DNA of 48,126 bases, from the NCBI RefSeq assembly GCF_001953305.1, contig NZ_MTFE01000010.1, forward strand, positions 3,765,809 through 3,813,934, written 5' to 3'. The stretch is from Cnuella takakiae (GTDB taxonomy: Bacteria; Bacteroidota; Bacteroidia; Chitinophagales; Chitinophagaceae). The notes beneath the pieces are model-generated. The model saw only the letters and a list, made by a program, of their open reading frames with translations. It had not been told where the DNA came from and did no database searches. Of the stretch, positions 6,397 to 38,509 are shown one piece after another (position 1 is the first letter of the stretch; the number at the start of each line of letters is the position of its first letter). Made by a program: the position numbers and the translations under genes.

Positions 6397-6740
6397 GTGG
6401 CAAACATTTGTTTAGAAGTGATGGCGATTAAGTGGCAAAAACACACTTATTCCTTCCGGTAGTGAAATAAGGCAGAAAAAGTGGTAGGCCTTGTGCATTA
6501 TGTTTCATTTCCTGTTCATTTTGTCTCAATGTTGCAGGAATATTTGCAGCAGGCTATTATAGTTGATGGCGCAGATGATTGCGCCTATGTTTTTGATAAA
6601 TTTTTCGATACTACGGCGGTTTGGAAAACCGGAAAAGGAAAGCAATGACCAATACAGGTATAAAATACGGTTATTCAAGGGTAACTATTGGACGCATGTC
6701 CACAGGGTAAATGATCGCACAAGGTTTGATGCCCTGGCAT
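6397..6740. other. Region between susC1 and the araR terminator
   Basis: This 344-bp stretch holds the susC1 upstream region with its palindrome (6430-6448), a 6-bp hairpin GGCGCA/TGCGCC (6568-6585) and a short plus-strand reading frame (6566-6742). A box AATATTTG at 6538-6545 matches the Bacteroidetes -7 consensus TAnnTTTG at seven of eight positions in plus orientation and could serve the short frame. I see no clear -7 box for susC1 itself. Confidence 0.6.
6430..6448. promoter_or_regulatory. Putative AraR operator upstream of susC1
   Basis: The 19-bp palindrome AAGTGGCAAAAACACACTT has outer arms AAGTG/CACTT in perfect symmetry and the same length and outer half-site as four other sites in this locus (15543, 29767, 38449, 38491). 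It lies 33 bp before the susC1 ATG, a position suited to repression. Assignment to AraR is by inference. Confidence 0.6.
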
Positions 6741-6742
6741 AA
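6566..6742 (+). CDS. Small hypothetical protein, 58 aa or shorter
   Basis: A short plus-strand frame convergent with araR. Three in-frame ATGs (6566, 6575, 6587) give 58, 55 or 51 residues; an upstream in-frame stop at 6560 bars extension. The protein starts hydrophobic (MFLINFSILRRFG from 6587) and continues with a charged, aromatic-rich part that includes YRYKIRLFKGNYWTHVHRV and the C-terminus RTRFDALA. This composition looks coding rather than random. Its TAA overlaps the first bases of a hairpin (6741-6772) that could end transcription in both directions. I do not recognise the family. A hairpin at 6568-6585 would fall in the 5' codons if 6566 is used, which favours 6587. It could still be a chance frame. 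Confidence 0.42.
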   Translation: MAQMIAPMFLINFSILRRFGKPEKESNDQYRYKIRLFKGNYWTHVHRVNDRTRFDALA

Positions 6743-6772
6743 AAAAAACGGCAACCTTCCGGCTGCCGTTTC
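6741..6772 (-). terminator. Terminator of araR, probably bidirectional
   Basis: The stem AAACGGCA (6746-6753) pairs perfectly with TGCCGTTT (6764-6771). On the minus strand it is followed by eight T (6741-6748), a textbook intrinsic terminator 3 nt after the araR stop. On the plus strand it sits at the end of the small frame 6566-6742 with a weaker T-run. Confidence 0.85.
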
Positions 6773-6774
6773 TA

Positions 6775-7461
6775 TTACATCATTTTGAAACCATCCTTTT
6801 CCAGCTTTCTATATTTTTTATCATCAAAAACATAGAGGTAAGCTCCTTTCCGCGATGATTCTTTTTCTTTTTCTTCCAGCTTTTGCAGAATTTCAAAAGA
6901 AAGAATTTTACGGGTGAAGTTGCGCTTGTCCAGCTCTGTTTCGTAGATGGCCTCGTACAAGGCCTGCAACTGGGGCAGGGTAAACTTGTTGGGCAAAAGC
7001 GCAAAACCAATCGGGTAGTTGGCAACTTTTTGCCGCAGCCTTTCCCGCGCCATGCTGATCATCTTTTTATGGTCGAAGATCAGCGGGGGTATTTCGTCCA
7101 TGGCAAACCACTCGGCCTGGTGCGACTCCATCAGTTCTTTGCTGTAGTCGTCAATTTTAATGAGGGCATAGTAGGCAATGGATACCACGCGGCCTCCGGG
7201 GTCGCGGTCCACTTCGCCAAACACATGCAATTGTTCCATGTAAATATCGTGCAAACCGGTAAGCTGGTCGAGGATGCGTTTGGCGGCATCGTCCACGCTT
7301 TCGTCTTTTTGCACAAAACCACCCATCAGCGACCATTTGCCTTTCTGGGGTTCGAATCCCCTTTTGATCAGCAGGGCTTTGAGTTGTGTTCCGTCAAAGC
7401 CGAAGATGATACAGTCAATGGCCAGCAGTAGTGGTTCGTAAGGCTTGTATTCGGCGATCAC
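6775..7461 (-). CDS. araR: Nudix-family transcriptional regulator AraR (degenerate Nudix box)
   Basis: 228 residues: an N-terminal Nudix fold (about 1-150) and a C-terminal winged-helix region (about 150-225). The Nudix box is present but its catalytic REUxEE core reads RILDQL (within GGFVQKDESVDDAAKRILDQ and onward), so the metal-binding glutamates are lost. This is the mark of the regulator branch (NrtR/AraR) rather than a hydrolase. In Bacteroides thetaiotaomicron the AraR of this architecture represses the arabinose operon and is released by L-arabinose. Here it is the last gene of araB-araD-GH127-araA-araT-araR, whose promoter has an operator-like palindrome, so it probably controls itself. 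The start is a GTG; the next in-frame upstream triplets lead to a stop 15 nt before it. Confidence 0.88.
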   Translation of the reverse strand: MIAEYKPYEPLLLAIDCIIFGFDGTQLKALLIKRGFEPQKGKWSLMGGFVQKDESVDDAAKRILDQLTGLHDIYMEQLHVFGEVDRDPGGRVVSIAYYALIKIDDYSKELMESHQAEWFAMDEIPPLIFDHKKMISMARERLRQKVANYPIGFALLPNKFTLPQLQALYEAIYETELDKRNFTRKILSFEILQKLEEKEKESSRKGAYLYVFDDKKYRKLEKDGFKMM

Positions 7462-7488
7462 AGTAAGGCAGTTTCATTAAAAATAAAG

Positions 7489-7532: not shown

Positions 7533-9236
7533 TTACCAGAACTTGATATAGAAAGCACTCAGGATGAGCAGGGTGGCCACGATGAGCGCCAGCGTACCGG
7601 GCTTCACCTTGAACATCGATGCATCGATCTCAATTGCTTTGGGGTTCTCTTTAGGACCAAACAGGGAAAGCACCACCATCACCAGTACAGTGAAGAAAAA
7701 GGACCAGCCCATGCAGATCAGGAAAGGAATTTCTACAAAAGTTTGGGTAACACCGTTTACTTCTTTGGTATACTGGTAAGCCGTGTACAACAAGGTTTCG
7801 TTGCCAAATGTTTCAGGCAGTACGGTGCTGTTGAACAACAGGGAAACTAGGAAGCCGGTGATGATACCTGCTACCGCAGCTGCACCCGTTGTGCGTTTCC
7901 AGAACATACCCAGGAGGAACATGGCCAGGATACCAGGAGAGATAAAGCCGGTGTATTTCTGGATAAAGGTGAAACCACCTTCGCCGCCAATACCCAACAA
8001 GTCTTCCCAGGTAAAAATGAGGGCAATAATCATGGCTGCTACCGCTACAATACGGCCCGTCCATACCTGCTTTTGCTCAGAAGAATCTTTGGCAAAATAT
8101 TTCTTGTGCAGGTCAAGGGTGTAGATGGTGGCGATGGAGTTTACTTTTCCCGCCAGCGAAGCCACGATAGCCGCGGTGAGTGCCGCCAGCGAAAGGCCTT
8201 TCAAACCATTGGGCAGGTAACCAAGGATGGCAGCATAAGCACCGTCTTTGTTGTCTAATGTAAGGTGGCCATGCTTAACCAATACCCATGCAGCGATACC
8301 GGGCACCATCACCACAATGGGCATGAACAGTTTCAGGAAACCGGCAAACAGGATACCATTTCGTGCAGTGGTCAGGTCGGCACCAAGCGCACGCTGGGTA
8401 ATGTACTGGTTACAACCCCAGTAGTTGAGGTTTACAATCCACTGGCCTGCGAAGTACATCGCAATGCCGGGCAGCACCACGTATTTCTGAATGTCGAGGT
8501 TGGAAGAATTCGCATCCGGCTTGGGGAAGATCATCTTGAAGTGCTCGGGCGAATCGGCCATCATGGCTTTGAAGCCGGCGATGGCATTGGCACCCACACC
8601 CAGTTTGTCACCCACAATGGTCAATGCCATCCAGGTAGTAGCAAGGCCCCCGATGATGAGTACCGCCACCTGGATTACGTCGGTGTAACCAATCACCTTC
8701 ATACCACCCAGGGTGATGATAAGCGCCATAATGGCCAGCACAATCATGATGGTGTGTAGATAGGCACCACCCAACAAACCGTTGATGGCAACGGCACCCA
8801 GGTAAAGGATGGAGGTAAGGTTCACAAACACGTACAAAAAGAGCCAGAAAATAGCCATGATCAATGCCACCGTACCGTTGTAACGGTTGGTAAGGAACTG
8901 GGGCATGGTCATGATCTTGTTCTTCAGGTAAATGGGCATGAACCATACGGCGATGATGATCAGCGCAAGGGCAGCAATCCATTCGTAGGCCGCAACAGCG
9001 GTACCTACAAAGAAGCCGTCACCACTCATTCCAATGAACTGCTCGGCAGAGATGTTCGATGCAATCATCGAAGCACCGATGGCCCACCAGGTAAGGGAAC
9101 CTTCGGCGAGGAAGAAGTCGTGTGTGCTCGTTGCTTCTTTTTTCTTTTTGCTGTAGATCCAGTAACCATAGCCGGCTACAATCACGAAGTAGATCAGGAA
9201 CACGACATAGTCGCTCCAGATAAGCCCATTTTTCAT
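7533..9236 (-). CDS. araT: Sodium/solute symporter, likely L-arabinose transporter
   Basis: 567 residues with about 14 hydrophobic membrane segments, beginning with WSDYVVFLIYFVIVAGYGYW and containing the SSS-family stretch WWAIGASMIASNISAEQFIG, which carries the conserved polar and small residues of the sodium-binding core. It belongs to the solute:sodium symporter family (SGLT-like) and sits in the inner membrane. Its place between araA and araR matches the arabinose permease gene in Bacteroides arabinose operons, so import of L-arabinose with sodium is the likely role; related sugars such as galactose or xylose cannot be excluded. A hairpin separates it from araA, which may set a lower transporter level. 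Confidence 0.9.
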   Translation of the reverse strand: MKNGLIWSDYVVFLIYFVIVAGYGYWIYSKKKKEATSTHDFFLAEGSLTWWAIGASMIASNISAEQFIGMSGDGFFVGTAVAAYEWIAALALIIIAVWFMPIYLKNKIMTMPQFLTNRYNGTVALIMAIFWLFLYVFVNLTSILYLGAVAINGLLGGAYLHTIMIVLAIMALIITLGGMKVIGYTDVIQVAVLIIGGLATTWMALTIVGDKLGVGANAIAGFKAMMADSPEHFKMIFPKPDANSSNLDIQKYVVLPGIAMYFAGQWIVNLNYWGCNQYITQRALGADLTTARNGILFAGFLKLFMPIVVMVPGIAAWVLVKHGHLTLDNKDGAYAAILGYLPNGLKGLSLAALTAAIVASLAGKVNSIATIYTLDLHKKYFAKDSSEQKQVWTGRIVAVAAMIIALIFTWEDLLGIGGEGGFTFIQKYTGFISPGILAMFLLGMFWKRTTGAAAVAGIITGFLVSLLFNSTVLPETFGNETLLYTAYQYTKEVNGVTQTFVEIPFLICMGWSFFFTVLVMVVLSLFGPKENPKAIEIDASMFKVKPGTLALIVATLLILSAFYIKFW

Positions 9237-9308: not shown

Positions 9309-10808
9309 TTAACCTTTTACTTGATGATAAACTTCACTCCAGCGCAGTTCCTGTTTGAAGGAATGCAGGCGGGTGTGTTCGTCAATCAGCACACACTCAA
9401 TACCGGCAATCTCAGCAAAGTCCGCGAGGTGCTCGGTAGTGAGGTTCTGGCTGTAGCAGGTGTGGTGGGCGCCACCGGCATAGATCCAGGCTGCGCAGCC
9501 GGTCTTCATGTCGGGCAGGGGCTTCCACAGCACGCGGGCTACGGGCAGCTTGGGCAAATCGTGCTGGGGTGCTACCGCTTCAACGGTATTTACCAGCAGG
9601 CGGAAACGGTTACCCATATCGATGATAGATGCGTTGAGGGCAGCGCCGCCATCTACGTTGAAAACAAGACGTACGGGATCAGCCTTTCCACCAATACCCA
9701 GTTCGTGGATCTCGCACTTGGGTTTAGCGTTGGCAATGGAAGGACAGATCTCCAGCATGTGCGAACCAAGCACCATCGAGTTGTTGGGCTCGAAGTGGTA
9801 GGTATAGTCTTCCATGAACGAGTTGCCGCCAGGCAGGCCGGCACCCATCACTTTCATGGCACGTACCAGCGCAGAAGTTTTCCAGTCGCCTTCGCCACCA
9901 AAGCCATAGCCGTCGGCCATCAGGCGCTGGGTGGCAATACCGGGCAGCTGGATCATACCGTGCAGGTCTTCGAATGTATCGGTAAAGCCTTTATAGTTGC
10001 CGTCTTTCAGGAATTTGCGCAGACCCAGTTCAATGCGGGCCGCATCGCGCAGGGCTGCGTGTTTTTCCGCACCTTGCTGCAGTTCGGGCGCCAGCTCGTA
10101 GCTGGTTGCGTATTCGGCAACCAGGGCATCTACTTCGCTTTCACCGATGGCGTTGATCACGGCAACGAGGTCGCCGATGCCATGGGTGTTCACCATGTAA
10201 CCAAATTTCATCTCGGCTTCTACTTTATCGCCATCGGTAACGGCCACAAAGCGCATGTTGTCGCCAAAGCGAACGAAGCGTGCACCCTGCCAGTCGGCCC
10301 AGCCGGCGGCGGCGCGGGTCCATGCACCCAGTTGCTGCAGCACTTCTTCATCCTGCCAGTGACCTACTACCACCTTGCGGTTGATGCGCATACGGCTCAT
10401 GATAAAACCAAACTCACGGTCGCCGTGGGCGCTTTGGTTCAGGTTCATGAAGTCCATATCGATCTCACCCCAGGGGATGTCGCGGTTGAACTGTGTATGC
10501 AGGTGTGCGATGGGCTTCTGCAGGCTTTGCAGGCCACGGATCCACATCTTGGCAGGCGAAAAGGTATGCATCCAGGTGATCACACCGATACAGGCAGTAG
10601 CGGCATTGGCCTCGGCACATACGCGGTAAATTTCCTCGGGTGTAGTAACCACAGGCTTGAATACCACGCGTACAGGAACAGCGGAAGCTTCGTTCAGGGA
10701 AGCAGCAATTTCCTGCGAATGCGCAGCTACCTGCTTCAGGGTTTCTTCACCGTACAGATGCTGGCTGCCGGTAACAAACCACACTTCAAATTCTTTCAGA
10801 TTGATCAT
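9309..10808 (-). CDS. araA: L-arabinose isomerase
   Basis: 499 residues, the standard length. It converts L-arabinose to L-ribulose in the cytoplasm. The N-terminus [15 protein letters not shown] is the family hallmark. The metal and catalytic residues are all found at nearly the Escherichia coli numbering: Glu306 (in GFGGEGDWK), Glu333 ([11 protein letters not shown]), His350 ([12 protein letters not shown]) and His449 (GGAHHTCYS). Manganese is the usual cofactor in this family. It follows the GH127 gene with an 80-bp gap that holds a double hairpin, and precedes araT. The start ATG is supported by the conserved N-terminus. Confidence 0.98.
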
Positions 10809-10888: not shown

Positions 10889-12892
10889 TTATTTAGCTAA
10901 AATATCTACGTCTTTCACGCCCGTTGGAAACCACACCATCATTTCGCTCTTACCACGGTTGGCCCATGCGTAATACGGAATAGCGGTGAACGGTTGCTTT
11001 ACCGTTGTAACGCTGTTGTTGTCCACTTTAACTGCAGGCACCGTGCTTTTTAATACCATCACGCCGTTCAGCAGGTTAGGCTGATATTCGGGTGTAAAGG
11101 TGGTGGATTGCGGCACCATGATGTTGGCAGCACGGCCACCATTGTCCCAGCCTTCGGCGCAGTACACCAGGGGTCCGCGCTGCAGGGCAATCTTGCCCTG
11201 GTCGTCCACCAGTTTTTCGTGTGCAACGATCTGCTGTACTTCCATAGGTAAGTTTACTTCCACCACATCACCCTTCTTCCAGGTGCGGTTGATGGTAGCA
11301 AAACCCTTATCCACGTTGTAGCTTACCTGCTGGCCGTTTACCTTGATCACCACTTCTTTGTTGTTGGTGGTAGCAAAACGGTACAGATCGGAAGGCACCA
11401 CCTGTTGTTGCGCCCATCCCGGAATGCGCACTTTCAAACCAAAGGCAATACTGCTTTTGGGGCTTACAATGAACTTCAGGTCGCCGCTCCAGGGATAGTT
11501 ATGCTGCTGCTCGATCTTTACATCTTTGTTTCCCAGTTTCAAATCGGAAACACTCACCGCAAAGAGGTTGACATAAATATCATTGTCCTTTTGCGCATAC
11601 ATATAACCGGGCACTGAAGGCAGCAGTCGGGTTACATTGGTAGGGCAGCAGGAGCAGTCGAACCAACCCGAGCGCTCCGCTTCGAGGCTGCCATGGTGAA
11701 AACTGTTTTTCACCTGCATGGCATTGGTATAAAAGAACGATTTGCCATCGAGGCCCACACCGGAGATCAGGCCGTTGTACAGGCTGCGCTCCAGCACATC
11801 GAGGTACTTGGCATCGCCGTGCAACAGGAACATGCGGTGGTTCCAGTATACGTTGGCAATGGCCGCACAGGTTTCGTTGTAGGCAGTGCCATTGGGCAGG
11901 TCGTAGTTGTCGCCAAAGCGCTCACCCGAAGGCACGGCTCCTATCCCACCCTGCACATAATACTTTTTGCTCACCATGTTGTTCCAGATGCGGTCAACAG
12001 CATGGAGGTAAGCGGTATCGCCGGTAAGGGCTGCGATATCGGCAACAGCGCTGTATAGGTATGCGGCACGCACCGCGTGGCCGATGGCTTCCTCCTGTTG
12101 TACTACAGGCTTGTGATCTTGCCAGTATGCACCATTCTTCCAGGGATCTTTATTGGTGGAATCATAACCATTAAAATGACCTCTTTCATCAATAAAGTCT
12201 TTGGCCGACGCGAGGTATTCTTTTTTACCTGTGATGCGATAGAGTTTTACCAAACCCATCTCCACCACTTCATGGCCGGGTGCCACATGATTTTTACCGG
12301 GACCAAAAACCGAACAAACGAGGTCGGCATTTTTTAAAGCGATATTGAGCAGGTTCTTTTTGCCGGTGGCATAGTAATGCGCTGCAGCGGCTTCAAAGAG
12401 GTGACCCGAGTTGTACAACTCATGGCTCAGTTCGCGTTCCTTTTCCCAACGCTGCGTTCCTGCCCAGGCATGCGGTGCAGCAGGGTTGATGGTTCGTGCC
12501 GTGTACAGGTAACCATCAGGTTCTTGTGCCCTGGCAACCTTGTCAATGAGCGTATCGATATAGCCTTCCAGCTTTTTGTCGGGGAACAAGCTCAATGAAA
12601 ACGATGCGCCTTCAATGGTCTTGTAGATGTCTGTATCATCAAATGGAAAGATGGTACAGAACTTTCCCTCGCGGGCAGCCGCCATTTCAAAGTTCTTCAC
12701 CCTTCCCGTGTTCTCGCACCGTTCAAAGGATGCGGGAATGGTAACCGTATGGTTCGTTTTGATGCGGGGCAACCAGAACTGGTCGTTCAGGTGCACCTGC
12801 GTGAAATTAACCGAGCGGATCGGGTAATCGGTTTGCTGTGCACGCCCTGTGAGGGCAGCAAGCAAGGCGAAGGAAAGGATGACTTTTTTCAT
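10889..12892 (-). CDS. GH127-family beta-L-arabinofuranosidase, exported
   Basis: 667 residues from the ATG at 12892, chosen because MKKVILSFALLAALTGRAQ is a clean signal peptide; the frame runs 21 codons further upstream, but only through a repeat element. The fold is the DUF1680/GH127 (alpha/alpha)6 barrel. The zinc-thiolate active site of this family is present: Glu340 and Cys342 (NETCAAIANVYW) and Cys415-Cys416 (FDCSCCPTN), matching the nucleophile and ligands of HypBA1. Known members remove beta-L-arabinofuranose from hydroxyproline-linked arabinans and similar chains, though the family also contains other specificities. It is expected in the periplasm and sits between araD and araA, so its product arabinose is used at once. 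Confidence 0.92.
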   Translation of the reverse strand: MKKVILSFALLAALTGRAQQTDYPIRSVNFTQVHLNDQFWLPRIKTNHTVTIPASFERCENTGRVKNFEMAAAREGKFCTIFPFDDTDIYKTIEGASFSLSLFPDKKLEGYIDTLIDKVARAQEPDGYLYTARTINPAAPHAWAGTQRWEKERELSHELYNSGHLFEAAAAHYYATGKKNLLNIALKNADLVCSVFGPGKNHVAPGHEVVEMGLVKLYRITGKKEYLASAKDFIDERGHFNGYDSTNKDPWKNGAYWQDHKPVVQQEEAIGHAVRAAYLYSAVADIAALTGDTAYLHAVDRIWNNMVSKKYYVQGGIGAVPSGERFGDNYDLPNGTAYNETCAAIANVYWNHRMFLLHGDAKYLDVLERSLYNGLISGVGLDGKSFFYTNAMQVKNSFHHGSLEAERSGWFDCSCCPTNVTRLLPSVPGYMYAQKDNDIYVNLFAVSVSDLKLGNKDVKIEQQHNYPWSGDLKFIVSPKSSIAFGLKVRIPGWAQQQVVPSDLYRFATTNNKEVVIKVNGQQVSYNVDKGFATINRTWKKGDVVEVNLPMEVQQIVAHEKLVDDQGKIALQRGPLVYCAEGWDNGGRAANIMVPQSTTFTPEYQPNLLNGVMVLKSTVPAVKVDNNSVTTVKQPFTAIPYYAWANRGKSEMMVWFPTGVKDVDILAK

Positions 12893-12910
12893 ATGTGGTT
12901 TTTGCAAGCT

Positions 12911-13091
12911 GGTTGGTGAATGGTGAATGGGCAATGGTGAATGGTTGAAAACCAAGCGGCTGTTTACAGTTAATTATTGATTACTGATTATTTATTATTA
13001 TGGGGAACGAAGCTTTGTCTGACATGGAATAATAAGTAATCAATAAATAATAATTCCATTATTCACCATTGCCCATTCACCATTCACCACC
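12911..13091. repeat. Nested inverted repeat A (gtgaatgg words) between araD and GH127
   Basis: Outer arms 12911-12942 and 13061-13091 are complementary throughout apart from one extra base. They are made of the tandem word GGTGAAT. Inner AT-rich arms 12972-12999 and 13028-13055 pair at 24 of 28 positions. The whole could fold into one stem of about 85 bp. The distal arm abuts the araD stop codon (13092-13094). It is noncoding. Confidence 0.85.
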
Positions 13092-13796
13092 TCATTGTCC
13101 ATAATAAGAATGCGGCCCATGCTTGCGCTCGTAGTGCTTTTTGATCAAAGCATCCTTGAGGCGCGGCGCGTTGGGATTGATCTGCTCGGTGAGGGTGGCC
13201 ATCTTGGCAACGGTTTCGAGCACCGCGCTGTTGTACACCGCCTTGTCGGCATTCTTGCCCCAGGTAAAAGGTGCATGGTTGCCCACCAGGATCATTTCGC
13301 ACTCTTCGTAGCTCAGGCCACGTTCTGCCAGGCAGTTCATGATCTGGAAGCCGGTTTGGTATTCATAGTCACCTGCTATCATCTCGTCGCTCATGGGCGG
13401 CGCACAGGGAATATCCACCGTAGTATGATCGCCGTGGGTAGTACCGTAGTTAATGATGTCGCGTTGCGCCTGCGCCCATGCAGTGCCATACACCGAATGG
13501 GTATGCACCACGCCGCCGATCTTTTCCCAATGCTTGTACAACACCGCATGGGTAAGGGTATCGGAAGAAGGACGGAGGTTGCCCTGAACGGTCTTACCGT
13601 CGAAGTCAACGATTACCATCTTATCGGGAGAAAGGTCTTTGTAGGGAACGCCGCTTGGTTTGATGGCAAAAACACCCAGGCTGCGGTCGGCCGCACTAAC
13701 GTTGCCAAAAGTGAAGAGAACCAGCCCCAGTTCAGGCAGCTGCATATTGGCAGCATAGGCTTCTTCCTGTATGTGTTGATACGGATTTACGATCAT
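13092..13796 (-). CDS. araD: L-ribulose-5-phosphate 4-epimerase
   Basis: 234 residues, the usual size for this class II aldolase-like zinc epimerase, which converts L-ribulose 5-phosphate to D-xylulose 5-phosphate in the cytoplasm. Zinc and catalytic residues are visible: Asp79 (SSDT), His98 and His100 (VVHTHS), His174 (GNHAPFTWG) and catalytic Asp123 (THGDHTTVD); the C-terminus HSYYGQ carries the family's essential tyrosine. The ATG overlaps the araB stop in an ATGA junction, showing translational coupling. Its product is the entry point to the transketolase and transaldolase encoded at 17007-19745. Confidence 0.97.
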   Translation of the reverse strand: MIVNPYQHIQEEAYAANMQLPELGLVLFTFGNVSAADRSLGVFAIKPSGVPYKDLSPDKMVIVDFDGKTVQGNLRPSSDTLTHAVLYKHWEKIGGVVHTHSVYGTAWAQAQRDIINYGTTHGDHTTVDIPCAPPMSDEMIAGDYEYQTGFQIMNCLAERGLSYEECEMILVGNHAPFTWGKNADKAVYNSAVLETVAKMATLTEQINPNAPRLKDALIKKHYERKHGPHSYYGQ

Positions 13797-15502
13797 GCTT
13801 CAGTGAGTTGGTTTTGTGCTACAGGCTTCTTCGTTTGTGCTTCAAGGAAAGCTCCGGTCTTGATGTATTTCTTGTAACGCTTCTCGTAAACGTCAACCCG
13901 TGCAGGGTTGGGTGTGTATTCGGCATCAAAGCCCTGGCCCATGGCCTGCATGGCGGCTTCAACGTTGGGATACAATCCGGCAGTGGTGGCAGCAAACATA
14001 GCGGCACCCAGTGCGCAGGTTTGCTCCGACTTGTGTACGCGGATGGGCATGCCAATTACATCGGCCATCATCTGCATAACAAAAGGCGATTTTTTGGCAA
14101 CGCCACCCAAAGCGATCAAACCTTTTACAGGCACGCCTTCAGCGATAAAGCGGTCAACGATGGCCTTGGCGCCAAAGCAGGTAGCTTCCACCAGGGCACG
14201 GAACATGCGCGGCGCATCGGTACCCATGTTGAGGCCGGTAAATGCGCCTTTCAGCAACTGGTCGGCATCGGGCGTACGGCGGCCATTGATCCAGTCAATA
14301 GCCAATTCGCTGCCTTCTTCAGGTTCCAGCAGGTCGGCTTGCTTGCTCAGCTCGGGAATGAGTTTATCTACGGCTTCTTCCACCAGTTTCTTGGCGGTAT
14401 CGGCATCAATGATGGATGATTGGGAAAGCACATGTTGCAGCGGCCAGGCCAGCACATCGCGCAGCCAGGCATAGGCATCACCAAATGCCGACTGGCCGGC
14501 TTCCATACCCAGCATACCGGGAATAACGGAGCCGGGCACCTGTCCGCAAATACCGCGAATCAGCTTGTCGCCCACTTCGGCTTCGGGCGCCACCAAGATA
14601 TCGCAGGTGGAAGTACCCATTACCTTGGAGAGATAGTAGGGTTCAATTTGTCCGCCTACAGCACCCATATGGCAATCGAAGGCACCGGCACCGATTTGTA
14701 CATCGGCAGGCAGGCCTAAACGCTGTGCCCACTCGGCAGAGATGGTACCTACAGCGGTATCTGAAGTATAAACTTCCGTATACAATTTTTCGGTAAAGCC
14801 CTTCAACAACGGGTCGAGGGTTGCAAAGAAATCATCGGGAGGCAGTCCGCCCCACTCTGCAGCCCAAAGACCCTTGTGACCCGCAGAACATACGCCACGC
14901 TTGATCTCGGTAGCTTTCTTGCCACCGGTGAGCAGGAAGGGAATCCAGTCGCAATGCTCTACCCAACTGTGGATGGCGGCACGTACGGTTTCATCGGCAC
15001 GCAGGATGCGCAGCAGCTTTGCCCAGAACCACTCCGAAGAGTAAATACCACCTACATATTGCAGGTAGTTGGTATCAAACTTCTCCGCATGAGCGTTGAT
15101 TTCGGCTGCCTCGCCAGTGGCCGTATGGTCTTTCCACAACACGAACATGGCGTTGGGGTTTTCGGCAAACTGAGGCAGCATGGCCAACGGAGTACCGGTA
15201 GCATCAACTGCAACCGGTGTAGAACCGGTGGTATCAACGGAGATGGCCTTTACGTTGGCAGCAATGGCCGAACCGGCCTGCAGCAGGCAGCGCTTGATGG
15301 TATCTTCCAGGCCTTCGATATAATCGAGGGGGTGCTGGCGAAACTGGTTGGCAGCTGCATTGCAATACCGGCCTTCTTTCCAGCGGGGATAATAAAACAC
15401 GGCGGAAGCTACTTCGTTGCCGTTCTGCGCATCTACCAGTACCGAACGAACCGAGTCGGAACCGTAGTCAACACCTATCACGTAGGCTTGGGACAAGCTC
15501 AT
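13793..15502 (-). CDS. araB: L-ribulokinase (FGGY family)
   Basis: 569 residues, the standard length of AraB-type ribulokinase. The N-terminal phosphate loop YVIGVDYGSDSVRSVLVDA and the segment GSTPVAVDATGTPLAMLPQF are typical, as is the second domain with GAFDCHMGAVGGQ and the C-terminal GGVAKKSPFVMQMMADVIG signature of FGGY kinases. It phosphorylates L-ribulose using ATP in the cytoplasm. It is the first gene of araB-araD-GH127-araA-araT-araR. A TAAATTTG promoter box and an overlapping 19-bp palindrome lie 40-60 bp upstream, so repression by AraR is likely. Confidence 0.97.
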   Translation of the reverse strand: MSLSQAYVIGVDYGSDSVRSVLVDAQNGNEVASAVFYYPRWKEGRYCNAAANQFRQHPLDYIEGLEDTIKRCLLQAGSAIAANVKAISVDTTGSTPVAVDATGTPLAMLPQFAENPNAMFVLWKDHTATGEAAEINAHAEKFDTNYLQYVGGIYSSEWFWAKLLRILRADETVRAAIHSWVEHCDWIPFLLTGGKKATEIKRGVCSAGHKGLWAAEWGGLPPDDFFATLDPLLKGFTEKLYTEVYTSDTAVGTISAEWAQRLGLPADVQIGAGAFDCHMGAVGGQIEPYYLSKVMGTSTCDILVAPEAEVGDKLIRGICGQVPGSVIPGMLGMEAGQSAFGDAYAWLRDVLAWPLQHVLSQSSIIDADTAKKLVEEAVDKLIPELSKQADLLEPEEGSELAIDWINGRRTPDADQLLKGAFTGLNMGTDAPRMFRALVEATCFGAKAIVDRFIAEGVPVKGLIALGGVAKKSPFVMQMMADVIGMPIRVHKSEQTCALGAAMFAATTAGLYPNVEAAMQAMGQGFDAEYTPNPARVDVYEKRYKKYIKTGAFLEAQTKKPVAQNQLTEA

Positions 15503-15542: not shown

Positions 15543-15561
15543 AAGTGTCAAATTTACATTT
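15543..15561. promoter_or_regulatory. Putative AraR operator at the araB promoter
   Basis: AAGTGTCAAATTTACATTT is an imperfect 19-bp palindrome sharing AAGTGT and TTTACA, at the same spacing, with the sites at 29767 and 38491. It fully covers the -7 box at 15549-15556, so binding would block RNA polymerase. Confidence 0.7.
15549..15556 (-). promoter_or_regulatory. araB: Promoter -7 box of araB operon
   Basis: On the minus strand this reads TAAATTTG, a full match to the Bacteroidetes primary-sigma -7 consensus TAnnTTTG, 46 bp before the araB ATG. No perfect TTTG -33 box is seen at the usual 19-21 nt spacing. Confidence 0.6.
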
Positions 15562-15662: not shown

Positions 15663-15686
15663 AAAAAGGTTTAAACCGTCTGGTTT
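15663..15686 (-). terminator. Weak terminator after the lytS-like gene
   Basis: On the minus strand AAACC (15682-15686) pairs with GGTTT (15673-15677) across a 4-nt loop, then AAACC and five T (15663-15667). It overlaps the kinase stop codon region and separates that gene from the araB unit. Confidence 0.45.
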
Positions 15687-16761: not shown

Positions 16762-16950
16762 TTTATACGGCAGCCGGGAGCATATCGAACCTCGTTTGTT
16801 ACGCATAGATGCAACGGTTGGTTGCGGAATTGGTGATGGTTTTACCAAAGGAAAGCGGGGAGGCATCACATGGGGTAGGGACAAGCCCGCTCAAATTACA
16901 AAATACCGCAATGCCTCAAAGCGAAAATTGACAGGGGTCGTATACCCAAT

Positions 16951-17981: not shown

Positions 17982-18004
17982 GTTGAAATAGTCTGAATGG
18001 TAAA

Positions 18005-18102
18005 TGAGGCAATTAGCTAATGTGATAATAGGCTAATGTGCTAAGGAAACAGCCAAGTGGCATTCTTTTATTAGCTGATTAGCACATTAGCTAATTAGCT
18101 CA
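18005..18102. repeat. Inverted repeat B (ttagctaat words) between the two transketolase genes
   Basis: Arms 18005-18036 and 18071-18102 pair at 27 of 32 positions and consist of the word TTAGCTAATGTG. The distal arm contains the stop codon and the last four sense codons (ELIS) of the N-terminal transketolase gene, so it has become part of the coding sequence. Confidence 0.8.
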
Positions 18103-26317: not shown

Positions 26318-26375
26318 GCTATCGTTTGTGTTTTGTTTTTTATGACTTTGTCAAAAACGGAAGTAAATACGCCTA

Positions 26376-27881: not shown

Positions 27882-27935
27882 GTTATTAAAAGGCATAAGC
27901 TTGATTGGGGAGAACACCTGACAGTTTTAAGGAAA

Positions 27936-28004
27936 CCCCTAACAGGTCTCGAAGAACTGTTAGGGGTGGTAAAACCTATAAGGTTTTGAAAACCTTATAG
28001 GTTT
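27936..28004. repeat. Inverted repeat pair F between GH51 and GH43 genes
   Basis: First hairpin: CCCCTAACAG (27936-27945) with CTGTTAGGGG (27957-27966). Second: AAACCTATAAGGTTTT (27972-27987) with its exact complement (27989-28004) around one base, identical in arm sequence to the first hairpin of repeat E. It begins 6 nt after the GH51 stop. Confidence 0.85.
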
Positions 28005-28010
28005 CTTACA

Positions 28011-29555
28011 TTATTTCAACTCGAGCACTACTACCGAGAAAGGTTGCATTTTCACGGTGAGGGTATTGCCTTTCAGGCTCGCACCTTTAAACGCTGCGGG
28101 CTGAATTTTATTAGGCTGCGCAAAAGTGTTGTAGTCCTGCAGCTTGGCAGAAGAAAGCACAGTGCCCGTTACGGTTTTGTATTGACCGCCTTCAATGTTG
28201 ATGGTCACTTCCTGTGCCTGCGTAGCGTGCACGTTGGTAAGCGACACATGCGTTACACCCGCCTTGTCTTTGGAAGCCGAAGCCGATACAGCAGGCAGGC
28301 TTTCATTGCCGAAGGTGTAATTGTTGGTCTTGATATTCAGGGGCAGCAGGGTTGCATCCTGGTGCACCTTGTACATATCCAGCACATGGTAGGTTGGGGT
28401 CAGCAGCATCTTGTCGCCCTCGGTGAGGATCACCGACTGCAGCACGTTAACCACCTGGGCCAGGTTGGCCATACGCACCCGGTCGCTGTGGTTGTGGAAG
28501 ATGTTGAGGGTAGCACCGGCGATCATCGCATCGCGCATGGTGTTTTGCTGGAACAGGAAGCCGGGATTGGTACCGGGCTCCACATCATACCAGCCACCCC
28601 ATTCGTCTACCACCAAGGCCACGTTCTTTTTGGGATCGTACTTGTCCATGATGCGCACATGCTTGGTGATGAGCGAATCCATAAACAAGGCACTCTTCAT
28701 GGTTTGGAAGTACTGCTCCTCGGTGAAGGTTGTAGAAGGACCTTTCTTGTCCCACTTGATCACCGAATAATGGTGGAGGGCCAGGCCGCTCAGCATGTTG
28801 TTCGGGATATTTTTCATGAGCACTTCGGTCCAGTTGTAGTCGGCCGAGTTGGAACCCGAAGCAATACGGAACAGCCCGCCGGTATTGGTCCAGTCGCTCA
28901 TGAAGGTGGCGTATTTGCGGTAGGTGTCGCTGTAGTACTCAGGCGTGAAGTTGCCACCGCAACCCCATGCTTCGTTGCCCACACCCCAGAACTTTACCTT
29001 CCAGGGTTCTTTCCTGCCGTTCTCCACACGAAGCTTACTCATGGGGCTTTCGCCACCAAAGTTTACATACTGTACCCAGTCGGCCAGCTCCTGCACGGTG
29101 CCGCTGCCTACATTACCTGCCAGGTAAGGCTCGGTGCCCAGCAGTTCGCACATGTTGAGGAAGTCGTGGGTACCAAAAGAGTTATCCTCGGTAACACCAC
29201 CCCACCATACGTTCACGATCTTGGGGCGCTGCGCCTTGGGGCCAATACCATCTTTCCAATGGTAGGTGTCGGCAAAGCAGCCGCCAGGCCAGCGCAGGTT
29301 GGGTATCTGGAGCTTTTTAAGGGCGGCGATCACATCGTTGCGCACACCGGCGGTGTTGGGCACACGGGAGGTATCACCTACATACATACCGCCATAGATA
29401 CAGCGGCCCAGGTGTTCGGCAAAATGGCCGTAAATGTGTTTGGAGATCACCTGCTGCGGCTTATCGGCCTGCAGGGTGGCTGTGTTTTGCGCATGGGTCA
29501 GGGAAATTGATCCGGCAAAAGCAAGCAGACCAACGATGGATTGCTTCATCTTCAT
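28011..29555 (-). CDS. GH51 alpha-L-arabinofuranosidase, exported
   Basis: 514 residues: signal peptide (to about residue 22), (beta/alpha)8 barrel and C-terminal sandwich, the compact GH51 form. Motifs HIYGHFAEHLGRCIYGGMY and NLRWPGGCFADTYHW are diagnostic. Acid/base Glu195 (GVGNEAWG) and nucleophile Glu318 (VVDEWGGWY) are present. It releases terminal alpha-L-arabinofuranose from arabinan and arabino-oligosaccharides in the periplasm. It is the first gene of the nine-gene unit, and the region before it carries an operator-like palindrome 211 bp upstream, implying a long leader or a further undetected promoter element. Confidence 0.95.
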   Translation of the reverse strand: MKMKQSIVGLLAFAGSISLTHAQNTATLQADKPQQVISKHIYGHFAEHLGRCIYGGMYVGDTSRVPNTAGVRNDVIAALKKLQIPNLRWPGGCFADTYHWKDGIGPKAQRPKIVNVWWGGVTEDNSFGTHDFLNMCELLGTEPYLAGNVGSGTVQELADWVQYVNFGGESPMSKLRVENGRKEPWKVKFWGVGNEAWGCGGNFTPEYYSDTYRKYATFMSDWTNTGGLFRIASGSNSADYNWTEVLMKNIPNNMLSGLALHHYSVIKWDKKGPSTTFTEEQYFQTMKSALFMDSLITKHVRIMDKYDPKKNVALVVDEWGGWYDVEPGTNPGFLFQQNTMRDAMIAGATLNIFHNHSDRVRMANLAQVVNVLQSVILTEGDKMLLTPTYHVLDMYKVHQDATLLPLNIKTNNYTFGNESLPAVSASASKDKAGVTHVSLTNVHATQAQEVTINIEGGQYKTVTGTVLSSAKLQDYNTFAQPNKIQPAAFKGASLKGNTLTVKMQPFSVVVLELK

Positions 29556-29766
29556 GAATGGAAATTTGCGGTTTTAATGGCGTCAAATCTTTACTGGCCG
29601 GGCAACCGGAGGTTTTACCCTAAAGAGGCTTTATCCACATTCCCCGTGCAGATTTTTCTTGCGGTAGTACAGACTTTGCAAGCAAGTTCTGGAGCGAATA
29701 TGACAAGCAGGGCAAATACAACAGGCACCCATCTTTCCAGCTTAAAGAAAGCCGGGGTTCGAATTT

Positions 29767-29785
29767 AAGTGTATTTTTTACAATT
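29767..29785. promoter_or_regulatory. Putative AraR operator upstream of the nine-gene operon
   Basis: AAGTGTATTTTTTACAATT is a 19-bp palindrome with the same outer arms as the site at 38491. Similarity to that site extends beyond it: both are preceded by CCGGGGT..GAATTT and followed by ATTA, so about 38 bp are shared. Confidence 0.7.
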
Positions 29786-29921
29786 ATTATTTTCTGGCAA
29801 AAAAATCTCGGTTTTCCACATTTATGTTGATCAAAATAGCGGTAGTGGAAAGGGCAATTTTTATACAGCCGCTGTAAAGTAGTCCGTTCCTCTTACACAT
29901 AATCGGATATCAGGGGCAGCC

Positions 29922-33723: not shown

Positions 33724-35274
33724 TTAGTTGGCCGGGTTGGGCTTCAGGTTTTTGTTTACATCCAGTTCGCGCTGCGGGATGGGCAGGTATTCGTTACCGG
33801 GAGTCCAGGTATTGAAGTCCTTGTCATGCGCCTTCAGCTCGGCGAGTTTGGCTGCGTCGTACAACCAACCCCAACGGATGATGTCGTGAATACGCTGTCC
33901 TTCGATTGAGAATTCCAGGGCACGCTCATGGGCAATCTGGTTGCGCATGGCTGCCTGGCTCAAACCGGGCTTGGTGGTAGCCAGGTCGGGCAGACCGGCA
34001 CGGCTGCGTACACGCTGGATGAAGGGGTAAGCTTCAGCAGTGCGGTTCAGTTCGTTCAAAGCTTCAGCATACATCAGCAGAACGTCGGCAAAGCGGAGGA
34101 TGCGGTAGTTGATACCACCTTCCACAACTTCGGCAGCTACACCCTGACCATCGTAGGTATACTTACGGGGATAGATCTTGTTCTGAGGGTTGAACCATGC
34201 ACGGCCATAGGCCTGGGTGCTGTTTTCAGTGGGTTCGTAAGAAGCAATGGTTGCCAGCAACCGGGGATCCAGTTTGTTGGCGGTAGTGCGCTCCTGTTTG
34301 AACTCATTGTAGATCCAGGTTGTAGGCAGGTAGTCGGAGAAGCCTGCGCCTTCCATACCATAGGTGATGGAGAAAGCTTCAGCAGTGCGCCACTGGGTGC
34401 TGGGATTGCCCGTCCAGTTCATTACAGTACCACCAGTTTTGTCGAACTGAATTTCGAACAGCGACTCCGCGTTGTTCTCATTCACGTCCTTGAAGTTGTC
34501 GGCATAGTTCGGCATCAGTGAGTACACGTTCAGCAGGTCACCGGAGAAGAACTTCGCCAGTTCGGCAGCGGCCTTGTTGTAATCTTTACGATACAGGTAT
34601 GCTTTACCCAGCAGGCCTGTTGCTGCGCCCTTTGTAGCACGGCCTTTCTGGCCAGCGTCGAGGCCGGTAACATTAGCGTAAGAAACAGGGAGCTTGGCCT
34701 GTGCGGCAGCCAGGTCGGTGTAGATCTGGTTCCACAGGGTTTCTTCAGAAGCGGTGGCAGGATAAAAATCACTTGCACTCTGTGCAGAGCTGGTGATCAC
34801 CGGAACCGTTTTGAAGTTGGTGGCCAATGTGAAGTAAGCAAAACCACGCAGGAAATGCGCCTGGCCTATCAGGCGATCTTTTTCAGCTGCGGGCAGCACA
34901 TCGTTGCTGTATTTGCCTACATTTTCAAGTGCCTGGTTTGCACGGTTTACAACAATATACAGGTCGCGCCAGATCCACTCAACAGGACCCGAAGTGGTGG
35001 GGATGATGAATTGACCGGTAAGCTCCAGGTCGCCCCAGGGGCTGTCACCGGCAAAGTCGTCACCGCGGCTGTCCTGCAAACCGGGCAGCGAACGCTGGTA
35101 AGTGCCATCCGTGATCAGGCCGTTGTAGATGGCGGTAACCGCTCCGTAAGCCTGTTCTTTAGTTGTATAGTAGCCTTCGTTTGTGAGGTTGTTGGGATCC
35201 ACCTGATCCAGCTTTTTGTCACAACCCATCGTCAACAGGCAGCAAGCGCCAATGATGTATATAGACTTTTTCAT
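33724..35274 (-). CDS. SusD/RagB-family outer-membrane glycan-binding lipoprotein (pair 2)
   Basis: 516 residues with lipobox LTMGC (Cys18). The N-terminal helix CDKKLDQVDPNNLTNEGYY, the TPR-like middle and the end ILRFADVLLMYAEALNELN through YLPIPQRELDVNKNLKPNPAN are characteristic of SusD proteins. It pairs with susC2 at a 24-bp gap and caps that channel at the cell surface. Its sequence is clearly different from SusD1, so the pairs probably bind different oligosaccharides, for example linear versus branched arabinan; that division is my inference. Two operator-like palindromes upstream of susC2 suggest arabinose control. Confidence 0.95.
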   Translation of the reverse strand: MKKSIYIIGACCLLTMGCDKKLDQVDPNNLTNEGYYTTKEQAYGAVTAIYNGLITDGTYQRSLPGLQDSRGDDFAGDSPWGDLELTGQFIIPTTSGPVEWIWRDLYIVVNRANQALENVGKYSNDVLPAAEKDRLIGQAHFLRGFAYFTLATNFKTVPVITSSAQSASDFYPATASEETLWNQIYTDLAAAQAKLPVSYANVTGLDAGQKGRATKGAATGLLGKAYLYRKDYNKAAAELAKFFSGDLLNVYSLMPNYADNFKDVNENNAESLFEIQFDKTGGTVMNWTGNPSTQWRTAEAFSITYGMEGAGFSDYLPTTWIYNEFKQERTTANKLDPRLLATIASYEPTENSTQAYGRAWFNPQNKIYPRKYTYDGQGVAAEVVEGGINYRILRFADVLLMYAEALNELNRTAEAYPFIQRVRSRAGLPDLATTKPGLSQAAMRNQIAHERALEFSIEGQRIHDIIRWGWLYDAAKLAELKAHDKDFNTWTPGNEYLPIPQRELDVNKNLKPNPAN

Positions 35275-35298
35275 GAGAATTTGCTCGATGTTTTTAGA

Positions 35299-38200
35299 TT
35301 AAAAACCTACCTGCACACCAAACATGAAGGTGCGGGGCTTGGGGTAAGAACCGAAATCAAAACCGGGGTTCAGCACACCCGAAGTAAAGTCGGGGTTGTA
35401 ACCATAGTACTTCTGGAAAGAGTACAGGTTCTGCGCAGTGAGGTACACGCGGGCTTTGGATACACCTTTTACCAGGTTAGTGGGCAGGGTATAACCAACA
35501 GACAGGGTGTTGATGCGCAGGAAAGAACCATCCTGCAACCAGTTGGGACGATCAGAGTCCTTGAAGTTGTTTACATCGGCATCGTTCAAACGGGGGATGT
35601 CGGTGTTGGTGTTGGTGGGGGTCCAACGGTTCATCATGTCGGTGCTGTAGTTGAGCGAACCGGCAGAGTGGTGCAGATCGCGGTACATGCGGCTCAGCAC
35701 TTTGAACTTGGCGCTACCCGATGCAAATACAGAGAAGTCGAAGCTCTTGTAAGCACCCGAGAGGTTGAGGCCATAGTTGTAACGGGGAATAGCGCTACCC
35801 AGCGATACGCGGTCGAAAGTTTCATCTACAATACCATCGGGTTTGCCGTTGGGACCGCTGATGTCTTTGTACTTCACATCACCAGGAGCCAGCACAGCGC
35901 CAAACTGCTTGGCATGTGCGTTGATCTCAGCCTGGTTCTGGAAGATACCTTCGTATACAAAGCCGTAGTGTTCGCCAATTTCACCCCCTACAACGGTGCG
36001 GGCACCTACGCCATACAGGGGCTCGTTGTTGCCACCCAGGCTCAGTACCTTGTTCTTAACAGTAGACAGGTTAGCAGACACGTCGTAAGTGAATGCACCA
36101 CCGGTTTTGTGGTAAGTGGCAGAAAACTCGAAGCCTTTGTTGGACAGGGTTGCAGCATTTACTACAGGCGCAGTATTGATATAACCGGTAGACAAAGGAA
36201 TGGGAACGTTTACCAGGATATCGGAGCTCTTAGCATTGTAGTATTCAGCAGAGAAGTCCAGTTTGTTGTTCAGGAAAGTACCATCGAAACCAAAGTTGGC
36301 AATGGCCTTTTCTTCCCATTTTATACCGGGAGATGCCACCAGTGTTTGCGAACCACCAACATAGCGGGTACCATTAAACGCATACACTACGCCTGTGTTG
36401 AGTACACCCTGGTATTGGTAGTCGGCAATCTTGTCGTTACCCAGTACACCATAAGATGCACGTAGTTTCAAGGACGATACAAGGTTGCGGGGCAGGTTCC
36501 AGAAATCCTCGTTGCTGATCTTCCAGCCAATAGAACCGGCAGGGAAATTACCATAACGGTTGTTGGGGGCAAAACGCGAAGAACCATCACGACGCAGGGT
36601 ACCGGAGAACAGGTACTTGTCGCCATAAGAATAGTTCACACGGCCAAAATAAGAACTGAGGGTTGCGATATACTCGTAACCATTGGCAGAAGTAGTCTGA
36701 CCGTTAGCAAGGGTCATTACATAGGGTGTAGTGAAACCTTCGGCGTGGCCGTTGCGGATCAAAGTATTGTTCTGGCGGTACGACTGTCCCAACAGGGCCT
36801 GCACACTGTGCTTACCCAGGTTCAGGTCGTAGTTGAAGGTGTTTTCAATAGCCGAGTTGGTGAACGTACGGGTGTTGTCGTCCAGGCGGGCACGGTCGGT
36901 ACTGAAAAATTTACCCAGGTTGAATACAGGTACAAAAGAGAAGTCGCGGGTCTGTGTTTTGTCGTAGCTCACGCTGGAACGGAAACGCAGGTTGTGCGCA
37001 TTGTTCTTCAGCAGCTGCAGTTCGCCATACACGTTACCAAAAGTGCGGTCAACATCTACCCAGTTGGTAAATATGTTGTTCACCGCAATAGCGTTAAGCG
37101 AGTTGGCACCATTGAACTCCGAGTTGGAACCACCAAAGCCATTGAGCATGGTGGCATCGTACACGGGCATGGTAGGAATGGCCGACACCAGCGATACAAT
37201 CATAGGCGGAATACCACCCAGGAGGATATCGTCGCGGAAGGTCAGCGAGTTTTCGTGCGAATGGGTATAGTTAAACGTCTGACCAATTTTGAAGATGCCT
37301 TTTTCAGCCGTAGTGTTTACACGGGCAGAGTAGCGCTGGTAGGTAGGACCATTGCCTGCATATGTACCCTTGTTGTCGAAATAATCAAGGGATACATTGT
37401 AGGTGCTGTTGGCACCGCCACCAAATACGCTTACGTTGTGGTTCTGGCGGCTGCCGGTTTTCAGGCCTGCGTTCTGCCAATCGGTATCAATGTTCTTTAC
37501 ATAGCCGGGATTGGAAGGATCGTTGGCGGGAAACAGCGGGCGGCCAGCGTTTACGCGGGCTTCGTTGTTCAGGGTCTGGTATTGCTGACGGTTGGTTACG
37601 TCCTTGGTTTGCCAAACTTTGTCTACACCGTAGTAACCGTTGTATTCAATTTTAGCAGCCGTGTTTTTCTTACCCTGCCTGGTGGTGATGATCACCACAC
37701 CGTTGGCAGCTGCGGCACCGTAAATAGATGCGGCAGATGCATCTTTCAGTACCGAAATGGACTCAATGTCGTTGGGGCTGAAGTCGCGGATAGAAGTACC
37801 TACAGGCACACCATCTACAACATAGAAAGGCTGGGCGCCGCCAAAGGTGCTGAAACCACGGATGCGTACGCTGGGAGCGGCACCGGGCTGGCCATCGGAA
37901 GTAACCTGAACACCGGGAGCGCGGCCTTGCAGCAGCGAGGAAATGTCGTTGGTACTAACCTTCTTGGCTTCCGCCACGTTTACGGTAGCAACGGCACCGG
38001 TAAGGTCCTTTTTACGCTGGGTACCATAACCGATTACCACCACTTCGTTGAGGCTGGTAGAACCGTCAACCAGCTGGAAGGCCAGGTTGCCATCACGCAC
38101 CGACCCTTCCTGGACCTGGAAACCAACAGAGCTAACCACCAGCACGGAGCCGGGGGCTGCATTGATGGAAAACAGACCATTGGCATCGGTGGTAGTACCA

Positions 38201-38382
38201 TTTCTGGAACCTTTCACCACTACGGAGGCGCCCGCTATGGGTTCACCTTTCGCATTGGTTACTACTCCCTTGTAGGTTTGCTGAACGTTTTGGGCGTGCA
38301 CCTCAGTGGAATGCAGCATTAATGCCGACACTGGGGCCGCCATGAGGCTGTATTTAAACAGCGCTTGGCAAAACAATCTCAT
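35299..38382 (-). CDS. SusC/RagA-family TonB-dependent oligosaccharide transporter (pair 2)
   Basis: 1027 residues. Signal peptide (MRLFCQALFKYSLMAAPVSA to about residue 31), carboxypeptidase-regulatory-like domain (about 36-115), SusC signature VVVIGYGTQRKKDLTGA, plug domain with NGVVIITTRQGKK, and a barrel ending TFMFGVQVGF. It takes up oligosaccharide across the outer membrane together with SusD2. The gene has its own regulated region with two 19-bp palindromes (38449 and 38491). The upstream HAD gene is in the same direction, but 327 bp away with these sites between, so an independent promoter is likely. Confidence 0.96.
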   Translation of the reverse strand: MRLFCQALFKYSLMAAPVSALMLHSTEVHAQNVQQTYKGVVTNAKGEPIAGASVVVKGSRNGTTTDANGLFSINAAPGSVLVVSSVGFQVQEGSVRDGNLAFQLVDGSTSLNEVVVIGYGTQRKKDLTGAVATVNVAEAKKVSTNDISSLLQGRAPGVQVTSDGQPGAAPSVRIRGFSTFGGAQPFYVVDGVPVGTSIRDFSPNDIESISVLKDASAASIYGAAAANGVVIITTRQGKKNTAAKIEYNGYYGVDKVWQTKDVTNRQQYQTLNNEARVNAGRPLFPANDPSNPGYVKNIDTDWQNAGLKTGSRQNHNVSVFGGGANSTYNVSLDYFDNKGTYAGNGPTYQRYSARVNTTAEKGIFKIGQTFNYTHSHENSLTFRDDILLGGIPPMIVSLVSAIPTMPVYDATMLNGFGGSNSEFNGANSLNAIAVNNIFTNWVDVDRTFGNVYGELQLLKNNAHNLRFRSSVSYDKTQTRDFSFVPVFNLGKFFSTDRARLDDNTRTFTNSAIENTFNYDLNLGKHSVQALLGQSYRQNNTLIRNGHAEGFTTPYVMTLANGQTTSANGYEYIATLSSYFGRVNYSYGDKYLFSGTLRRDGSSRFAPNNRYGNFPAGSIGWKISNEDFWNLPRNLVSSLKLRASYGVLGNDKIADYQYQGVLNTGVVYAFNGTRYVGGSQTLVASPGIKWEEKAIANFGFDGTFLNNKLDFSAEYYNAKSSDILVNVPIPLSTGYINTAPVVNAATLSNKGFEFSATYHKTGGAFTYDVSANLSTVKNKVLSLGGNNEPLYGVGARTVVGGEIGEHYGFVYEGIFQNQAEINAHAKQFGAVLAPGDVKYKDISGPNGKPDGIVDETFDRVSLGSAIPRYNYGLNLSGAYKSFDFSVFASGSAKFKVLSRMYRDLHHSAGSLNYSTDMMNRWTPTNTNTDIPRLNDADVNNFKDSDRPNWLQDGSFLRINTLSVGYTLPTNLVKGVSKARVYLTAQNLYSFQKYYGYNPDFTSGVLNPGFDFGSYPKPRTFMFGVQVGF

Positions 38383-38448
38383 AGACTGTAGTTATTGTTA
38401 GGATTGAAAAAGCATCGTTGTTCCGCACAAATCCAAAATCACATAAAT

Positions 38449-38467
38449 AAATGTATTAAATACACTT
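38449..38467. promoter_or_regulatory. Putative AraR operator 1 upstream of susC2
   Basis: AAATGTATTAAATACACTT is a 19-bp palindrome with a single mismatch between arms, 66 bp before the susC2 ATG. Its centre is 42 bp (four helical turns) from the centre of the next site. Confidence 0.7.
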
Positions 38468-38490
38468 ATTAAATTCCGGGGTGTGAATTT

Positions 38491-38509
38491 AAGTGTAAAT
38501 TTTACAATT
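38491..38509. promoter_or_regulatory. Putative AraR operator 2 upstream of susC2
   Basis: AAGTGTAAATTTTACAATT is a 19-bp palindrome with a single mismatch between arms. Together with operator 1 it could allow cooperative binding or a DNA loop. Confidence 0.72.

Follow-up and report, generated by a model that had tools for sequence, protein, structure and literature searches.

The closest described counterpart of the system considered here is the arabinose repressor BtAraR (BT0354) of Bacteroides thetaiotaomicron, for which operators were tested by gel shift, binding was lost in the presence of L-arabinose, and crystal data are available (PMC4666351; statements on this system, here and below, draw on parts of that paper). 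The BT0365 oligonucleotide contains the palindrome AAGTGT-N7-ACACTT, Lys179 of BtAraR contacts the G of AAGTGT, AraR regulons have been published for Bacteroides and Prevotella, and BtAraR is 33% identical to XylR (PMC4666351). Among the literature matches listed, only PMC4666351 and PMC3878776 concern AraR of Bacteroidetes, the others dealing with AraR namesakes of fungi and Gram-positive bacteria or with unrelated subjects. Here, we analyze a stretch of 48,126 nucleotides (the window) from Cnuella takakiae, a member of the Chitinophagaceae (contig NZ_MTFE01000010.1, positions 3,765,809 to 3,813,934), and conclude from sequence comparisons that 19-bp palindromes in this window are very probably operators of a Nudix-type repressor, AraR, encoded at 6775-7461 on the minus strand.

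As in the BtAraR system, a Nudix-like domain is combined in this protein with the NrtR/AraR winged helix, and the models PF21906 (1.2e-24), PF00293 (1.3e-12), and PF19368 (6.4e-9) all score above their cut-offs. The same family includes XylR (BT0791) and, in Shewanella, the NAD-linked regulator NrtR. AraR of the window matches the BtAraR structure 5bs6 with an E value of 2.4e-80, at 56.8% identity over 213 residues, and Shewanella NrtR (3gz5) more poorly, at 2e-28. Within the alignment, which does not reach Tyr5, the arabinose pocket residues R34, F36, G47, G48, F49, R86, V92, F129, and H131 are all identical, and R34, R86, and H131 are kept in 98 of 98 compared AraR-type rows. The DNA contacts K179, R180, and N181 are retained as well, and are kept in 88, 94, and 98 of these rows, respectively. 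The Nudix signature is impaired, since three glutamates in its REUXEE part are replaced (RILDQL; by eye from the translation). The gene clusters with arabinose utilization genes, with an AAGTGT-N7-ACACTT-type site upstream of the ara run. Clustering with xylose utilization genes, as expected of an XylR-type regulator, is not found at this locus: neither xylose isomerase nor xylulokinase was detected among the 29 window open reading frames (ORFs) scanned with Pfam, and the araB product scores above ribulokinase models but well below the xylulokinase model (147.6 versus 380.25).

Five 19-mers in the window, all read on the minus strand, carry a single mismatch each, over 12 fixed bases, to AAGTGT-N7-ACACTT. 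These palindromes had been listed in an earlier note on this DNA, and their positions were all verified. They are located at 15543-15561, 40 bp before araB and the ara run including araR; at 29767-29785, 211 bp upstream of the first GH51 gene (GH51a); at 38449-38467 and 38491-38509, a proximal and a distal site spaced 42 bp center to center, the former 66 bp before the susC2 start; and at 6430-6448, 33 bp before susC1 (AAGTGGCAAAAACACACTT). A search of the whole window for further places with up to two mismatches found none, and the claim that other gaps lack such a site is true at this threshold. The excess in the window holds against three kinds of controls. Permuted half-sites (n = 89) gave a mean of 0.12 places at ≤1 mismatch and a maximum of 2, compared to 5 observed; varying the spacer from 0 to 15 gave 5 places with spacer 7, 1 with spacer 6, and 0 with all others; and in first-order Markov resampling of the window gaps, none of 1,000 trials produced more than 1 place (mean 0.007). 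The genome of 5,696,047 bases contains 15 distinct places at ≤1 mismatch, 5 of them inside the window, which makes up 0.84% of the genome (binomial p ~1e-7). The existence of four strong predicted operators and a weak candidate in the window is supported by these data and by the scores given below. As a side observation, the GH51a and distal susC2 operators have in common, within 29726-29800 and 38450-38524, a 45-column stretch extending into TTAAATTC-NN-ACCCCGG, of which no third exact copy was found in the genome.

Genome-wide, the bare pattern is unspecific at ≤2 mismatches (163 matches versus 149 for the reversed control), and a model, R1, was therefore built from 20 sites of relatives, excluding those of C. 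takakiae itself. These sites had been found with a pattern equal to the published operator form, and R1 used 20 of 31 places with ≤2 mismatches; the 11 dropped places, among them the perfect palindrome L060:3117, lay inside genes or lacked a fitting neighbor gene. R1 detected nine distinct places of at least 16 bits in the C. takakiae genome, with the next best at 12.8 bits. Four of the five window sites are among the nine, namely those of araB (21.0 bits, genome rank 1), susC2 distal (19.0 bits, genome rank 2), GH51a (17.2 bits), and susC2 proximal (16.8 bits). The other five are at 5310668 (18.8 bits), 4854446 (18.7 bits), 4063384 (17.4 bits), 2211079 (17.3 bits), and 3552891 (17.0 bits). 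The first of these precedes a SusCD pair (SusCD3), followed by a GH127 gene, by 26 bp, and genes for a sensor kinase and a response regulator of the AraC type diverge there. The second is found 26 bp upstream of a GH43 gene, whose product is weakly similar to arabinan endo-arabinosidases, far below model cut-offs. The regulon probably extends to the SusCD3-GH127 operon and this GH43 gene. It perhaps also includes the SusCD4 pair, whose first start follows the site at 2211079 (AAATGT-N7-ACATTT) at a distance of ~230 bp.

Ten places with ≤1 mismatch lie outside the window. L017, L018, L021, and L022 are inside long ORFs and are regarded as background. Two others were discarded for want of a fitting context: L020 falls on the start of an aldolase ORF and precedes an amidohydrolase gene, and L025 occupies a 99-bp gap flanked by transglycosylase and kinase genes. 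No explanation was assigned to L016 and L019. The place at 4063384 (L016:5001-5019) is the genome's one zero-mismatch palindrome; it precedes a tRNA-Met-like gene (by eye), and no arabinose genes were found in 10 kb. The idea that it might be a sugar-dehydrogenase operator was dropped, as the gap contains this tRNA-Met-like gene, and we claim no role for it.

The same arrangement was found in relatives. A match to AraR at E ≤1e-60 was present in 65 of 147 family genomes, from which 18 AraR genes were taken, 16 of them being, exactly or nearly, the 16 with the highest scores outside C. takakiae itself. The 250-bp stretch upstream of araB was tested in 17 of the 18 loci; L069, on a contig without araB, was left out, and in L060, where the contig stops short of araB, the stretch upstream of the GH51 gene following araR was used. 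A site was present at ≤2 mismatches in 15 of 17 loci and at ≤1 mismatch in 12. Including the window, the counts were 16 of 18 and 13 of 18, whereas the 89 permuted half-sites averaged 0.13 and 0.0, with a maximum of 3. The two loci lacking an araB-upstream site, L063 and L074, have one before the GH51 gene heading a run instead, and L069 has a 2-mismatch site before a transporter gene. The locus of one relative, G008, shares 90% identity with Flavihumibacter fluminis across 18,963 bases. Among named loci, taken as the best 80 of one scan, an intergenic site at ≤1 mismatch occurred in 48 (87 sites) and at ≤2 mismatches in 62 (35 of 41 loci with araA or araB and 27 of 39 others), compared to averages of 0.34 and 6.6 and maxima of 2 and 18 with permuted controls, and to 0 to 3 sites with other spacers of 3 to 12. 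Site-bearing loci include those of Flavihumibacter, Chryseolinea, Flavobacterium, Leeuwenhoekiella, a Tannerella metagenome-assembled genome (MAG), and Fodinibius roseus (Balneolota). Three sites, spaced by 40 and 41 bp, precede a susC2-like gene in the Ferruginibacter MAG locus L102. In eight Flavobacterium loci (L121, L130, L139, L141, L155, L167, L169, and L173), araR and susC2 are accompanied by two AraR-type sites with a spacing of exactly 99 bp.

Sites and repressor also co-occur among genomes. Of 36 hand-picked family genomes, 18 contain AraR, and none of these contributed to R1; the other 18 gave no AraR match at E ≤1e-60. An R1 match at E ≤0.1 was obtained in 15 of the former versus 3 of the latter (Fisher p 1.5e-4), and in eight of the AraR-bearing genomes (G027, G083, G087, G034, G100, G009, G109, and G038) R1 matches lay within ~250 bp of araR. 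Weaker AraR matches were searched for in 5 of the 18 genomes of the second group (G023, G032, G033, G004, and G104). In G023, one of the three R1-positive genomes of this group, araR is cut by the contig end, and G032 and G033 gave no AraR match at E ≤1e-20. The congeners G004 and G104 have only 40 to 42% identical nearest matches (40% in G004), and neither showed an R1 match. G004 keeps araB, araD, an epimerase gene, and araA, with no site at ≤2 mismatches in 19.9 kb around its ara genes; no araA match was found in G104. Together with the published operator form, the conserved pocket, and the sites in relatives, the R1 scan and this co-occurrence back the earlier proposal that the palindromes belong to the AraR encoded at 6775.

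Several observations weigh against AraR as the protein acting at these sites. It differs from BtAraR at three further DNA contacts (K184R, K204R, and R205K), termed absolutely conserved (PMC4666351) and kept in 16, 46, and 7 of the 98 rows, respectively. R1 matches are missing in 3 of the 18 AraR-bearing genomes, and an intergenic site at ≤2 mismatches is absent from 18 of the best 80 named loci (6 of the 41 ara-linked ones), some of which lie on short contigs. These named loci are not independent, many being close relatives such as those of Flavobacterium. The R1 genome scan scored 150 of 1,685 first-look candidates, and two of its top nine places, 4063384 and 3552891 (the latter between genes for a secreted protein and a sugar transferase), are without an arabinose context. 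Next to the sites, the full promoter box TAnnTTTG barely exceeds shuffles (mean best 4.62 of 6 versus 4.33, sd 0.10), with literal boxes near only 3 of 28 sites. To these points are added the weakness of the site at 6430 and the presence of a second AraR-type protein in the genome.

The earlier note had placed four units under AraR, of which those headed by araB, GH51a, and susC2 are well supported; the claim is weaker for susC1 because of its site at 6430. We see close to an even chance that susC1 is outside AraR control and that this site either nearly matches by chance or has decayed. It scores 10.0 bits under R1, gave no match at E ≤10 in the genome scan, and has one half broken at a GTGT core base which is invariant in 26 other compared sites. 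However, it lies 33 bp before susC1 and ranks directly behind the four strong sites within the window. It also lies behind a terminator-like hairpin directly 3' of araR (6740-6774, minus strand; -20.9 kcal/mol when the initial 45 nt of this gap are folded) with eight U on its 3' side, and because of this hairpin and U run, susC1 probably has its own promoter. Despite this folded hairpin, a consensus promoter and terminator scan of 6300-6900 found no promoter and no minus-strand terminator.

It is rather improbable, but worth considering, that some sites are bound by a paralog of AraR or are common to both proteins. The genome encodes four NrtR-type proteins, and one of these, a second AraR-type paralog (G000:C1:2570154-2570804), retains the pocket but carries K179N. 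In a tree of 103 rows, it falls into a second AraR-type clade, members of which adjoin ara genes with the same motif elsewhere (L071, L072, L073, L075, L136, and L165). Its nearest row is Segetibacter koreensis L142 (support 100/98), where araR adjoins a GH51-GH51-GH43-epimerase-transaldolase-transketolase run like that behind 29767, along with two 2-mismatch sites. The gap between the paralog and the neighboring susC gene contains a place (L026:10615) that fits the 21-bp motif with 2 mismatches; because of this place and the likeness to the L142 run, the GH51a site could be a target of the paralog. In turn, araR of the window sits among the ara genes themselves, 19.9 kb around the paralog contain no 21-bp motif at ≤1 mismatch, and G039, G064, G072, G058, G108, and G008 have a single AraR match at E ≤1e-60, yet sites are present.

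At base 3, both halves of the SusCD4 site have A, like those of the sites at two of three N179 loci (L069 and L110); no site was found at the third, L127. A partial split of operator codes, in which K179 AraR would read AAGTGT and the N179 paralog AAATGT after concerted change of residue 179 and base 3 in two arabinose-sensing repressors, is improbable. Since several K179 loci (L067, L074, L094, L101, and L144) also have sites without the G, this pairing is merely a lead. L127, where araD and araB homologs accompany the AraR-type protein, is on a contig labeled as a Deltaproteobacteria MAG, pointing to transfer or misbinning. A further NrtR paralog of C. takakiae (L027:9522-10256) precedes susC, susD, and SusE/F-type genes, with the palindrome ACGTGTTTTAAAGACACAT at L027:10349-10367 (G000:C1:752748) just before susC; this NrtR protein perhaps controls a different glycan system.

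It is extremely improbable that the palindromes represent promoter elements rich in AT, or matches by chance, rather than operators: promoter-like boxes do lie beside them, and at ≤2 mismatches the bare pattern barely exceeds its control in the genome as a whole, but permuted half-sites, other spacers, and Markov resampling yield almost none, and genomes without a close AraR rarely match R1.

The earlier reading of the genes behind the predicted AraR operators is borne out. Behind the site at 15543, one minus-strand run comprises araB (ribulokinase, 13793-15502; NF003154, 723.7, cut-off 428), araD (L-ribulose-5-phosphate 4-epimerase, 13092-13796; NF006047, 333.4, cut-off 257), a GH127 beta-L-arabinofuranosidase gene (10889-12955; PF07944), araA (L-arabinose isomerase, 9309-10808; NF002795, 849 bits, cut-off 622), the gene of a sodium:solute symporter, probably the arabinose transporter AraP (7533-9236; PF00474), and araR. 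Downstream of 29767, Pfam and NCBIfam matches identify genes for GH51, GH43, GH51, GH43, aldose epimerase, GH97, and a transaldolase/fructose-6-phosphate aldolase-like protein and split transketolase genes (17007-29555, minus strand), which, judging by strand and spacing, would form one transcript. The pairs susC2-susD2 (33724-38382; Plug/CarbopepD_reg_2 and SusD_RagB) and susC1-susD1 (1756-6396; TonB-dependent receptor and SusD families) are also on the minus strand. A histidine kinase gene lies between both arabinose runs (15685-16884), with no response regulator among the neighboring ORFs scanned. Upstream of susC2, a HAD-type hydrolase is encoded (38710-39471), homologs of which stand directly before araB in L061-L065, L094-L097, L099, and L182.

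The ara genes, GH51/GH43 genes, and SusCD operons as targets, araR inside the ara run, tandem sites at one target, and a SusCD operon with its own two-component regulator, as SusCD3 would have, are shared with the BtAraR regulon (PMC4666351). In contrast to that system, the host belongs to the Chitinophagaceae, the tandem sites of the window precede susC2 and not the ara genes, GH127 is among the ara genes, and the site at 29767 is followed by transketolase and transaldolase-like genes, which the parts of PMC4666351 drawn on here do not mention.

Oriented like the genes, the sites follow the motif T-AA[AGT]TGT-N7-ACA[C]TT-A; the C is retained in 19 of 27 gene-side halves and the G in 9 of 27 far halves. 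In an offset window chosen after inspection of the data, a TA..TT box starts 12 to 16 bp past the site at 17 of 23 araB sites (shuffle mean 1.5 and maximum 6 in 2,000) and at 19 of all 37 sites (shuffle mean 2.3). In the window, TATCTTTC occurs 13 bp downstream of the araB operator. The Bacteroidetes promoter form comprises elements at -33 and -7; the operator would cover the -33 region, and AraR would therefore act by exclusion. The position of the TA..TT box points to promoter occlusion as the mode of repression, which L-arabinose would lift. In the absence of this sugar, an AraR dimer on the operator beside the box would keep RNA polymerase off, and L-arabinose in the Nudix pocket would release AraR. 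Release would turn on the ara genes, the arabinofuranosidase/pentose-phosphate genes, and the SusCD uptake systems together, and the same switch would operate at least on the SusCD3-GH127 operon and the GH43 gene elsewhere in the genome. The location of araR inside the operator-controlled ara run would imply feedback. A helical phasing of tandem sites was considered and rejected, as spacings of 42, 40, 41, 99, 66, 59, and 89 show no general phase (by eye). Crp-like sites, searched for with the motif in the parts of PMC3878776 drawn on, were found at four places with 3 mismatches and none better; one of these, at 29823, is upstream of GH51a.

The AraR/operator circuit, known from gut Bacteroides, is here traced by comparison of loci beyond Bacteroides and Prevotella, with repressor and operator form recurring in loci of Chitinophagaceae, Cytophagales, Flavobacteriaceae, and Fodinibius (Balneolota). 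Because of this recurrence, arabinose release, uptake, and catabolism should be predictable as one regulon in environmental degraders of plant polymers, and the R1 operator model also flags predicted arabinose-responsive uptake systems without an assigned substrate.

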